Below, in pieces: positions 61,769 through 63,626 of a stretch of 64,000 bases of DNA (position 1 is the stretch's first letter; the number at the start of each line of letters is the position of its first letter). The notes beneath the pieces were generated by a model, which had not been told where the DNA came from, searched no databases, and saw only the letters and a program-made list of their open reading frames with translations. Source of the stretch: Clostridia bacterium (GTDB lineage Bacteria; Bacillota; Clostridia; Christensenellales; Aristaeellaceae). Location of the stretch: the NCBI GenBank assembly GCA_017521565.1, contig JAFXCE010000114.1, positions 1 through 64,000 on the forward strand, in the 5' to 3' direction. The position numbers and the translations under genes were made by a program.

Positions 61769-61844
61769 GGGGCATTAGCACAGTTGGTAGCGCGCTACAT
61801 TCGCATTGTAGAGGTCACCGGTTCGAATCCGGTATGCTCCACCA
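61769..61844 (+). tRNA. tRNA-Ala (anticodon CGC)
   Basis: A 76-nt cloverleaf with encoded CCA: acceptor stem GGGGCAT/ATGCTCC including the G3-U70 wobble pair that identifies alanine tRNAs; anticodon stem CTACA/TGTAG with loop TTCGCAT giving CGC; T arm CCGG-TTCGAAT-CCGG. It decodes GCG. The gene is intact, and its 3' part is repeated twice downstream. Confidence 0.97.
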
Positions 61845-61845
61845 C

Positions 61846-61873
61846 AAAGACCTTCTCAAATGAGAAGGTCTTT
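61846..61873 (+). terminator. tRNA terminator, part of the repeated header
   Basis: A 12-bp stem (61846-61857 with 61862-61873), 4-nt loop, followed by T residues. The left arm is within the 72-bp direct repeat. Confidence 0.9.
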
Positions 61874-61954
61874 TGCATTATGCATAGAATGTAGCTTGAA
61901 ATGCAAACAGTTTGCATAAACCAATGTTTAGATCAAGAAAATAATAGAATCCAC

Positions 61955-62013
61955 TTGGGGTATTAGCACAGATGGTAGCGGCGCATTCGCATTGCTCGGT
62001 GCATTGTTTACCA
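61955..62013 (+). repeat. tRNA 5'-half-like element A
   Basis: 59 nt starting GGGGTATTAGCACAGATGG closely follow the 5' half of the tRNA-Ala gene up to the anticodon (ATTCGCATTG) and then diverge, ending in TTTACCA. It is about 88% identical to a second copy at 62993-63051 with no gaps. It cannot fold as a full tRNA because the 3' acceptor strand and T arm are absent. Confidence 0.75.
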
Positions 62014-62048
62014 AAGGCAGGGAATCATGCAAATGCTTCCCTGCCTTT
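62013..62048 (+). terminator. Hairpin between tRNA-like element A and payload 1
   Basis: A 12-bp perfect stem (62013-62024 with 62037-62048) with a 12-nt loop and ATTTAT tail. It would insulate the payload from upstream transcription. Confidence 0.8.
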
Positions 62049-62107
62049 ATTTATCTTACTCGTTATGGTACAATATAGCCAGATACTTCGTAAGGAGATG
62101 AACTCTG

Positions 62108-62809
62108 ATGCTGCAATTATCCGAAAAAGCAAAAAGGCTCTATGATTTGCTGTTCACAAAAGATTTCTCACTGGAACTTTTGAAGAATGAATTGGAAAGC
62201 GGAGTATATGCACCAGAGGATGTCAGTACAGCAGGTTTTCAGTACGTAGATGATTGCTGCTGCGATTTGGTGGACGAAAACTGGAAAACACCACTCCGTC
62301 CGCATGGAATAGTCTTACCCGGTTATTGTTCATCTCATATGCTTGAAGCATTGAAATGCCTGCTGAAATATGGACTGGATCCCAATGCAGTGTACGGCGA
62401 GGGATCTGATCAAAGTAATATTATGAGTGAATTGCGTTATGTAGAAAATGGCTATCTTGCCGCCGATTCACTGGCATTACTGTTGGATCATGGTGGAAAT
62501 CCAAGCATCATTTTAAATGGTGCTTCACTGATTAGAGACATCAATTTCGATCTGTTGTTTGACCTGAACAACCAAGAAGATCGCACCCGGTATGATAGCC
62601 TTGTCCACTATTGGATGGTGCTTGTAGGGTATGGAGCCAAGTTGGAAGATGGAAGTGAATCCATCGACATGTGTTCTGGACACGACGTATCTGAATTGAA
62701 AAACCACAGGGATTTCTATTATGGTGCCATTCATTCAGACAGATCGGAAGATCGAATGGAAATCTGCTTCTTTAATAAACATTCGAATTGGGAAGTTGGG
62801 CGTTTTTAG
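62108..62809 (+). CDS. Payload 1: hypothetical ankyrin-like protein
   Basis: 233 residues with AAGGAG 11 nt before the ATG, visibly AT-richer than the flanking chromosome. A TACAAT box lies at 62069-62074. The protein is acidic and soluble; MLEALKCLLKYGLDPNAVYGEG and ADSLALLLDHGGNPSII look like ankyrin-type repeats, and the C terminus (GYGAKLEDGSESIDM) repeats the theme. Proteins of this kind often act as immunity proteins of toxin systems in Clostridia, which is an inference only. No toxin gene is adjacent. It is bounded by tRNA-Ala-derived repeats on both sides and has no neighbour in the same cassette. Confidence 0.8.
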   Translation: MLQLSEKAKRLYDLLFTKDFSLELLKNELESGVYAPEDVSTAGFQYVDDCCCDLVDENWKTPLRPHGIVLPGYCSSHMLEALKCLLKYGLDPNAVYGEGSDQSNIMSELRYVENGYLAADSLALLLDHGGNPSIILNGASLIRDINFDLLFDLNNQEDRTRYDSLVHYWMVLVGYGAKLEDGSESIDMCSGHDVSELKNHRDFYYGAIHSDRSEDRMEICFFNKHSNWEVGRF

Positions 62810-62837
62810 TATATCGGGGATGAGATAGAGGTGGTTC

Positions 62838-62909
62838 GGTAGCGCGCTACATTCGCATTGTAGAGGTCACCGGTTCGAATCCGGTATGCTCCACCACAAA
62901 GACCTTCTC
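62838..62909 (+). repeat. Direct repeat 2 of the tRNA-Ala 3' region
   Basis: 72 bp identical to 61786-61857: from the D-arm GGTAG through the anticodon arm, T arm, CCA and the left terminator arm. The sequence before it (CGGGGATGAGATAGAGGTGGTTC) replaces the tRNA 5' end, so this copy is not a functional tRNA. Typical of an attR-type site left by integration at a tRNA 3' end. Confidence 0.9.
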
Positions 62910-62925
62910 TAAAGAGAAGGTCTTT
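62898..62925 (+). terminator. Terminator in repeat 2
   Basis: A 12-bp stem (62898-62909 with 62914-62925), loop TAAA, T tail. It can end the payload 1 transcript. Confidence 0.85.
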
Positions 62926-62992
62926 TGCTTTATGTCCAAGATATACCACTTATGCAAAACAATGATTAGCTCAAGAAAACAACTAAATTCAT

Positions 62993-63051
62993 TTAGAGTA
63001 TTGGCACAGAGGGTAGCAGCGCATTCGCATTGCTCGGTGTATAGTTTACCA
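62993..63051 (+). repeat. tRNA 5'-half-like element B
   Basis: 59 nt, gap-free alignment to element A with about 7 differences; the core GCGCATTCGCATTGCTCGG is identical, and both end in GTTTACCA. Located at the same place relative to the tRNA repeat as element A. Confidence 0.75.
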
Positions 63052-63052
63052 G

Positions 63053-63090
63053 ATGCATAGGATTCGGATGAATCCTATGCATTTTTTCTT
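63053..63090 (+). terminator. Terminator between tRNA-like element B and payload 2
   Basis: A 13-bp perfect stem (63053-63065 with 63070-63082), GGAT loop and TTTTTCTT tail. The sequence is unrelated to the hairpin in the first unit although the position is the same. Confidence 0.9.
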
Positions 63091-63097
63091 TGTATGA

Positions 63098-63126
63098 TTG
63101 ATGCTTAGTTTTATTCATGCTATCAT
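63098..63126 (+). promoter_or_regulatory. Putative promoter of payload 2
   Basis: TTGATG (63098-63103) and TATCAT (63121-63126), 17 nt apart; the gene starts 34 nt later. Confidence 0.65.
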
Positions 63127-63160
63127 GTACTCGACAAACTTGAATTTGAGGAGATTTAGA

Positions 63161-63478
63161 ATGGTGTTCTATGTTTTATTTGATATAGGAATGGCTGTGT
63201 TTATGTTTGCTATAGGTTTCTCGTTTTATAAGTCAAATGGAAAAGCCGCAAATTTTCTATCTGGCTATAATATGAGGTCTGTTCAAGAACGAAAAAAGCA
63301 TGATGAAAAGCAAATGTGTAGGGACTATGGAAAAAGAATGATGTATATGGCAATGCCGTTTTTATTTGGCGCTGTTATAGATATATGGTTTACTGGAGTT
63401 GGGTGTTTAATTGCTTGGGTACTTTGGCTGGCGATGTTCATTCTTCTGCTTATTGAAAGGCATAGGAGAGAGTGTTAA
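63161..63478 (+). CDS. Payload 2: DUF3784-like membrane protein
   Basis: 105 residues from the ATG at 63161, which has GAGGAG six nt upstream; the longer frame to 63098 begins in the promoter. Three membrane spans (VFYVLFDIGMAVFMFAIGF; MAMPFLFGAVIDIWF; GCLIAWVLWLAMFILLLI) with a loop FLSGYNMRSVQERKKHDEKQMCRDYG, which matches the AGYNxxSxxEKxKYDxxxLCR pattern of DUF3784 proteins. AT-rich compared with the chromosome. Function of the family is unknown; it is common on mobile elements and near toxins in Bacillota. It is the only gene in its cassette. Confidence 0.8.
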   Translation: MVFYVLFDIGMAVFMFAIGFSFYKSNGKAANFLSGYNMRSVQERKKHDEKQMCRDYGKRMMYMAMPFLFGAVIDIWFTGVGCLIAWVLWLAMFILLLIERHRREC

Positions 63479-63536
63479 ATTCTAATTTATCTAACCAGCT
63501 GCTACATAACATGTGGGGCTGAGTTACGTATGTTTC

Positions 63537-63596
63537 GGTAGCGCGCTACATTCGCATTGTAGAGGGCTTAGGTATCGAATCCGGTATGCTCCACCA
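63537..63596 (+). repeat. Decayed direct repeat 3 of the tRNA-Ala 3' region
   Basis: GGTAGCGCGCTACATTCGCA and the following TTGTAGAGG are kept; then the variable/T-stem part differs (GCTTAGGTAT for TCACCGGTT) before TCGAATCC and CCACCA return. Shares TTCGGTAGCG with repeat 2 just before the tRNA part. Marks the outer end of the array. Confidence 0.85.
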
Positions 63597-63626
63597 AACC
63601 TCAGTCGGAAGACTGGGGTTTTTCTT
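63597..63626 (+). terminator. Terminator at the outer end of the array
   Basis: CCTCAGTC and GACTGGGG pair (with wobble) around GGAA, followed by TTTTTC. The sequence differs from the terminators of repeats 1 and 2. Confidence 0.75.

Follow-up and report, generated by a model that had tools for sequence, protein, structure and literature searches.

How does a single tRNA gene come to be followed by copies of its own 3' part, each leading into another gene? This question is raised by the right end of a 64,000-nt stretch from a Clostridia bacterium of the Aristaeellaceae (GenBank assembly GCA_017521565.1, contig JAFXCE010000114.1, positions 1 to 64,000; G000:C153:1-64000 in my numbering, hereafter the window). 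Here an intact tRNA-Ala(CGC), the only tRNA detected by ARAGORN in the 64 kb, is followed by a gene of 233 codons, a 72-bp copy of the tRNA 3' part, a DUF3784 gene and an altered third copy (Table 1). I consider it fairly probable that this is a stackable tandem of non-autonomous, mostly single-gene cassettes that are docked in the tRNA and were inserted by large serine recombinases (LSRs) supplied in trans. Observed directly are the anatomy of the array, its recurrence with unrelated payloads, sister loci that are either filled or consist of a lone tRNA, and the likeness of the cassette half-site to the junctions of LSR-encoding elements.

The repeat of the tRNA 3' part, starting at 61786 and again at 62838, is exact over 72 bp, which is far beyond chance, and when extended covers 97 nt at 97% identity; the third copy differs in the alignment by four mismatches and an inserted base. 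An earlier interpretation of this DNA made from its letters alone (the sequence-only reading), which the present analysis supports overall, had described these copies correctly. The further block that it placed at 61845-62013 corresponds to a second repeat (61918-62019 and 62956-63057; 102 nt, 82% identity), which sits between tRNA copy and gene in both cassettes and contains a feature left unnamed at the time, a look-alike of the tRNA 5' half (the pseudo-tRNA) with a hairpin behind it. The likeness between junctions also extends upstream of each later tRNA copy (GGGGmTGAG...TTC), and this stretch is the informative half of the junction. Terminator-like sites number 4 in the array against 1.8 +/- 1.4 in shuffled sequences; promoter-like sites are not enriched (6 versus 5.5 +/- 2.5).

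Each of the two units in the window carries one AT-rich gene with a ribosome-site-like sequence of its own ahead of the start codon, in line with what had been claimed. The GC content of the payloads is 0.42 and 0.36, compared with 0.593 +/- 0.036 (minimum 0.44) for 700-bp stretches of positions 1-61500, and the two proteins show no mutual similarity. Payload 1 has no Pfam match at E < 0.1 and none over the cut-off, no match in NCBIfam, PHROGs or PADLOC at E 0.01, and none in plasmids. Payload 2 is a DUF3784 protein (E 1.8e-19 for a longer reading from 63098). Among the 243 loci that were compared (whole relatives were not searched), the two payload proteins have matches only in stretches of their own genome, and relatives that repeat this pair of genes in unchanged order, which would speak against exchange, were not encountered. 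The window's array holds no recombinase gene, in agreement with the earlier statement that no integrase is present in cis; the addition that none is needed there is a conjecture. Matches to phage records (29) cover at most 6% of the query and are confined to the tRNA stretch, and the exact junction pattern has no match in viral contigs.

The array is not the only one of its kind. A search with positions 61769-62080 finds the cassette blocks twice more in the same genome, both times on contig C96: a second tRNA-Ala(CGC) with the block and a 62-aa payload at 33.7 kb, and 27 kb further on (61.2-63.1 kb) another array, which reaches the contig end and has an HTH (helix-turn-helix) gene and a PAP2-like gene between junctions. 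In the latter (L010:12300-15102) the first junction lies behind a TetR gene; an intact tRNA was not found there. The 395-bp junction block has matches at E <= 1e-8 in 22 of the 29 genomes of the genus, many of them via the tRNA alone, and arrays, recognised by further junctions or a cassette head, are present in 8 of the 29 (G000, G005, G011, G012, G013, G014, G015 and G026). Beyond the genus, a sample of 300 genomes of the family yielded junctions in two other genera (G201, G041 and G210 of g14; G252 of g17). Order-wide, the junction pattern is seen in 2 of 396 genomes (the own genome and G041), a sample which includes just two genomes of the window's genus, and the reversed-pattern control gave 0 in the genomes listed.

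Altogether 21 closed units from 16 arrays measure 513-1703 bp between sites, with one exception of 2937 bp that is probably two units, to judge from another head inside it; their GC content ranges from 0.34 to 0.53. The presence of one gene per unit, as proposed from the window, is the usual pattern and not a rule, as some units have two genes; the genes lie mostly on the tRNA strand, and in three units (G015C61, G210, G252) on the opposite one. The payloads of this recurring block are almost all unrelated, as had been predicted: maltose-type acetyltransferase, DUF3592, GNAT, glyoxalase, methyltransferase, HNH, HTH with zinc ribbon, AraC with GyrI/Cass2, a below-cut-off Cass2 match, HTH, PAP2, metallophosphatase, RibD_C, a PIN/MazE-type pair and DUF3784. 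Of 20 proteins scanned across arrays, 5 have no match at E 0.001 (as has payload 1 of the window), and none is an integrase. When open reading frames of at least 60 aa on the tRNA strand and at least 100 aa on the other strand are compared, few genes are common to arrays: one shared by G011 and G013, which I take to be DUF5131-like, a pair within G015, presumably EamA-like, and an HTH match. The remaining matches are reading frames that cross tRNA or pseudo-tRNA copies. As several contigs stop in or near arrays (G005:C3, G005:C127, G013:C50, G011:C4, G000:C96), the real arrays may exceed their assembled length.

Some loci resemble arrays without being counted as such. G020 has two partial tRNA-Ala copies 2.7 kb apart and was rejected, its only readable half-site being unlike the cassette half-site, and in G110 and G236 the tRNA is accompanied by a cassette-like hairpin, with no second junction found. 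Within the G015C38 array (L045) is a gene that resembles a transposase, of IS110 type as judged by eye, and similar DNA, starting CAATTTGTC, follows tRNA copies in G014, G022 and G026 (L051, L056-L058), as if insertion sequences also targeted these sites.

Comparison of orthologous sites indicates how such units arrive. Grouping of the tRNA loci by their upstream DNA gave two large groups. In the first, the loci C96 (own genome), G005C3, G012C79, G013C69 and G015C38 are filled, G010C34, G017C12b and G021C23 consist of a lone tRNA, and G004C135 has a partial copy only; in the second, G005C127, G012C80 and G013C50 are filled, and G004C97, G011C112, G014C109, G022C34 and G026C7 are lone tRNAs. 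Upstream-matched tRNA loci thus hold other cassettes in some species and an empty site in others, as the sequence-only reading had anticipated. Such sporadic presence was found for the sister loci and not for the window's own locus (C153), as its upstream flank matched no other locus and fell in no group; insertion at exactly this locus is therefore deduced from its sisters. Insertion, one of the two routes originally proposed, is in this way supported, while exchange over accretion is not demonstrated. The recurrence with differing payloads, combined with sister loci that are different or lone, leads to the conclusion that the units behave as integrase-less cassettes.

The downstream DNA is much less conserved than the upstream DNA, and G004C135 and G012C80 share it across the two groups. 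Such seemingly swapped flanks between two tRNA-Ala(CGC) loci could result from homologous recombination between tRNA copies, which are long and similar enough for RecA, and the units could be moved or duplicated in this way without a dedicated recombinase. This would leave the first appearance of the units unexplained, as well as the half-site outside the tRNA and its likeness to LSR junctions (see below), and I regard it as very improbable.

Elements that encode their own recombinase occupy the same tRNA. An LSR gene adjoins a partial tRNA copy in G242, G233, G007, G009 and G213 (Pfam domains were checked in G242 only; the LSR of G213 is on the other strand), and at E <= 1e-120 the family is found in 26 of the 300 family genomes. 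I examined 32 LSR loci, 20 with at least 52% identity to the query over the aligned part and 12 below 47%. In the former set a partial tRNA-Ala copy follows the gene at a distance of 43-276 bp in 17 of 20 loci, two others end at the gene and one (L222) is without a copy; in the latter set 1 of 12 (L237) has such a partial copy. The 17 loci are spread over 14 genomes and 6 genera; the LSR gene of G172 has an internal stop. The element in G242 measures about 3.3 kb from tRNA to junction and encodes, at L205:5233-6530 (G242:C1), QatD and the C-terminal part of QatC, which are anti-phage defence proteins; QatA and QatB were not noticed there. No close relatives of the LSR were found in viral contigs.

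The non-tRNA half-sites of cassettes and LSR elements are alike. Local alignment of 25 cassette half-sites with 15 LSR half-sites gives a mean score of 7.05, compared with 5.41 +/- 0.09 for shuffled cassettes (maximum of 200: 5.80) and 4.78 +/- 0.10 for random 28-mers, and the score is 7.14 when the three LSRs of the window's genus are left out. The tRNA 5' half itself scores just 4.63 against the LSR half-sites, and tRNA ancestry therefore fails to explain the likeness. The half-site at the cassette junctions, scoring well above shuffles, thus appears to be that of the LSR-encoding elements. In G026 the two kinds of unit even stand in tandem: behind an LSR gene with an open frame come a junction, then a cassette with one gene, then another junction. 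In both G242 and G026 the recombinase gene is on board, unlike in the window's array. It is quite unlikely that site-specific recombination by some other enzyme, a different tyrosine recombinase or a different LSR, brought the units here: 28 of the genus's 29 genomes encode tyrosine recombinases at E <= 1e-10, with as many as 22 in a single genome and a minority of them examined, and L237, just 39% identical to the query, also ends 28 bp ahead of a partial tRNA-Ala copy, but the half-site common to cassettes and LSR elements points to the LSR family described above.

Insertion by LSRs supplied in trans would proceed as follows. A unit consists of the tRNA 3' part, a hairpin, often the pseudo-tRNA and a second hairpin, a promoter-like stretch, the gene or genes and, at its end, an attP-like half-site, to which in an array the next tRNA 3' part adjoins. 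LSRs encoded by other elements that use the same tRNA would insert the cassettes, by recombination inside the segment that unit and tRNA have in common; as the cassette begins with a tRNA 3' part, insertion would rebuild the tRNA, and since every insertion recreates a usable tRNA, insertions could stack. The crossover would lie at some point of this common segment, which runs from AGCGCGC through the anticodon arm.

Several observations weigh against this explanation. At E <= 1e-30 the LSR family was not found in the window's genome (85% complete), and of the 8 genomes of the genus with arrays, the window's among them, it was found in G026 only; from the absence in the window's genome I infer the action in trans. 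The shuffle test ignores relatedness among half-sites within each set. The downstream DNA of filled and lone-tRNA loci gave no clean match, which leaves the precise junctions of insertion unproven. At most array ends in the genus the T-arm is an altered one and not that of the host, and further decayed copies beyond them are therefore required, one of which is seen in G015 past the last clear copy. No excised circle or recombination event was observed; the recombinase step, the action in trans and mobility at the present day are conjectured.

Another enzyme that might move the cassettes, in an integron-like manner and encoded away from the arrays, is a tyrosine recombinase. The candidate is a XerC/XerA-like protein of 328 aa encoded directly after spo0A (L113:6115-7098 in G015:C15), with orthologs in G005, G011, G012, G013 and G026 and a broken copy in G016 (G016:C318). 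Within the genus, 6 of the 8 genomes with arrays have an intact gene, compared with 0 of the remaining 21; the protein is 99% identical among G005, G015 and G026 while the surrounding DNA is about 88% identical, a sign of constraint, and tyrosine recombinases are the usual integrases of tRNA sites (PMC4383910). However, the gene is not at or near the tRNA site, it was not found in G014 (96% complete, array-bearing) or in the window's genome, and outside the genus the link fails: more distant orthologs occur in the array-less genomes G115, G171 (two copies, 9.9 kb apart) and G251, and none of the array genomes G201, G041, G210 and G252 belongs to the 10 genomes, out of 300, in which a match was obtained. 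For the last reason this recombinase, which I initially favoured, was demoted, and its involvement is now judged unlikely. A CRISPR-like repeat array with 61-bp spacing lies at the start of the G115 contig that has the relative of this recombinase (L172:13-775, G115:C44).

The successive tRNA copies differ in their T-arms. A perfect T-stem is found in 17 of 17 first copies and in 10 of 28 later copies; the first copies had been chosen for an intact 5' half, so that the difference is partly a matter of selection. In 18 of the 28 later copies the T-arm is changed in the same way and has an extra base (wTAGGTATCG or close; 63566-63576 in the window), all in 6 genomes of the genus (g1), sometimes with matching changes on the opposite side of the stem. 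The third copy of the window had been called decayed; it is present and altered, but because the changed T-arm is common to many later copies, in other species too, random decay alone does not account for it. The T-arm and acceptor end in G210 are those of the host in the first and last copies, while the middle copy is foreign; this would be expected of a tRNA 3' part that moves along as cassette head and of a last copy that represents the displaced end of the host gene. A crossover at the extreme 3' end of the tRNA was considered, since most array ends have the altered T-arm, and was set aside given the copies in G210 and the decayed copy in G015.

The pseudo-tRNA is conserved in 17 heads from 9 genomes. 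Its own half shows little variation at most pairs, and clear pair changes are confined to the hairpin behind it, a pattern for which I favour a role as a DNA site rather than as an RNA. An inverted repeat around the payload (GACAAACTTGAATTT and AAATTCCAATTTG, with at most 3 differences) is present in at least 6 units and possibly is a seam at which genes are loaded onto a constant cassette frame; such repeats also flank payloads in arrays of G000:C96, G011:C4, G014:C154 and G015:C116.

Table 1. Positions of the array features at the right end of the window
Feature	Position	Strand	Remarks
Intact tRNA-Ala(CGC)	61769..61844	+	Docking site; 3' part is the head of cassette 1
Hairpin directly 3' of tRNA copy 1	61846..61873	+	13-bp arms, 2-nt gap; not flagged by the terminator scan
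Pseudo-tRNA of cassette 1	61957..62013	+	Like tRNA 5' half and anticodon loop
Second hairpin, cassette 1 head	62013..62048	+	
Payload 1	62108..62809	+	233 aa; AAGGAG ahead of start codon
Left half of junction 2	62816..62837	+	attP-like, GGGGATGAGATAGAGGTGGTTC
tRNA-Ala 3' copy 2	62838..62896	+	T-arm intact; head of cassette 2
Hairpin behind copy 2	62898..62925	+	Terminator-like
Pseudo-tRNA of cassette 2	62995..63051	+	
Second hairpin, cassette 2 head	63051..63084	+	Terminator-like
Promoter-like site	63098..63126	+	TTGATG-17-TATCAT, extended -10; kept in other heads; such matches not above shuffles
Inverted repeat around payload 2, left arm	63133..63147	+	GACAAACTTGAATTT
Payload 2	63161..63478	+	105 aa, DUF3784; GAGGAG ahead of start codon
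Inverted repeat around payload 2, right arm	63477..63489	+	2 differences from AAATTCCAATTTG
Left half of junction 3	63515..63536	+	attP-like, GGGGCTGAGTTACGTATGTTTC
tRNA-Ala 3' copy 3	63537..63596	+	Altered T-arm, TTAGGTATCG
Hairpin behind copy 3	63596..63621	+	Terminator-like

How do these cassettes relate to known systems? Integrative elements nested in tRNA genes have an intact tRNA on one side, a tRNA 3' fragment on the other and an integrase on board; the first two are found here and the third is not, and the units are therefore classed as a non-autonomous variant that is miniature, standardised and stackable, is probably driven by serine recombinases and shares its site with LSR elements. 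Repeated tRNA 3' fragments beside a tRNA are also described for additive flexible genomic islands, which stack at tRNAs and of which the tRNA-Lys island of Ca. Methylopumilus has variable units, down to 330 bp and one coding sequence, with high turnover (PMC10872708). Unlike those described there, the present units combine a standard head and tail with genes that differ from unit to unit, keep to about 0.5-1.7 kb (20 of 21 closed units) and have a half-site in common with serine-recombinase elements. Tycheposons, as reported in the same source, are likewise cargo units beside tRNAs with a recombinase, but they span 4-200 kb and use a tyrosine recombinase (PMC10872708).

The staphylococcal and Enterococcus cassette chromosomes (SCC and ECC) offer another parallel, and SCC-like units without ccr genes can move in trans. 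In these systems Ccr large serine recombinases insert at the end of a gene, and one locus may have multiple att sites (PMC6222049). Direct repeats and very variable cargo are common to both, as is, probably, site-specific insertion into the end of a gene by a serine recombinase; unlike the ECC, with 21-78 kb in rlmH (PMC6222049), the present units bring one or two genes into a tRNA. The LSR reaches just 35.7 bits against CcrA, where the cut-off is 700, and its site is the tRNA, not rlmH.

Integron cassette arrays and CALINs (clusters of attC sites lacking integron integrases) are, like the present arrays, tandems of small units, often without a recombinase, and have mutually unrelated payloads of similar kinds (GNAT, glyoxalase, Cass2/GyrI, toxin-antitoxin). 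The site here, however, appears to be a tRNA 3' part with an LSR-like half-site rather than attC, many cassettes have their own promoter-like head, and the tails read GTTAGGC, GTTAGGT, GTTACGC or GATAGAG, so that a GTTRRRY core is not constant among them. An integron proper was rejected, as no IntI exceeds the TIGR02249 cut-off in any of 11 genomes (9 with weak matches); the 14 control genomes also have none over the cut-off and provide no positive control. A bolder and rather doubtful possibility is a second, independent integron-like system made of an LSR and a tRNA gene, in which the tRNA would serve as attI and be rebuilt at each insertion, selecting for a working 3' end in the first position; the pseudo-tRNA may then be an internal attB-like site, and the inverted repeats may be the loading seams.

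Returning to cassettes inserted by LSRs in trans, I found no description of one-gene cassettes in a tRNA moved by a serine recombinase among titles and abstract openings of the open-licence PMC literature, which is no proof of absence, and no statement on serine integrases in tRNA genes was met in the available part of PMC12884075. According to the Islander paper, tRNA genes are not among the known targets of serine recombinases, and the program requires an integrase gene of the tyrosine type (PMC4383910). The LSR family that adjoins partial tRNA-Ala copies at 17 loci contrasts with this statement. Integron finders, for their part, require IntI and attC. If cassettes of one gene are moved by the LSR sites as well, these gut Clostridia possess a means of stacking genes that is integron-like and would escape common tools. 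How a bare gene is converted into a cassette is an open question for integrons, and here the formation of cassettes would become approachable through the constant head and tail and the inverted repeats that surround the gene. In this group of gut bacteria, a single tRNA gene acts as a docking site where small one-gene units pile up, and the inserting enzyme is probably that of other mobile elements which use the same site.

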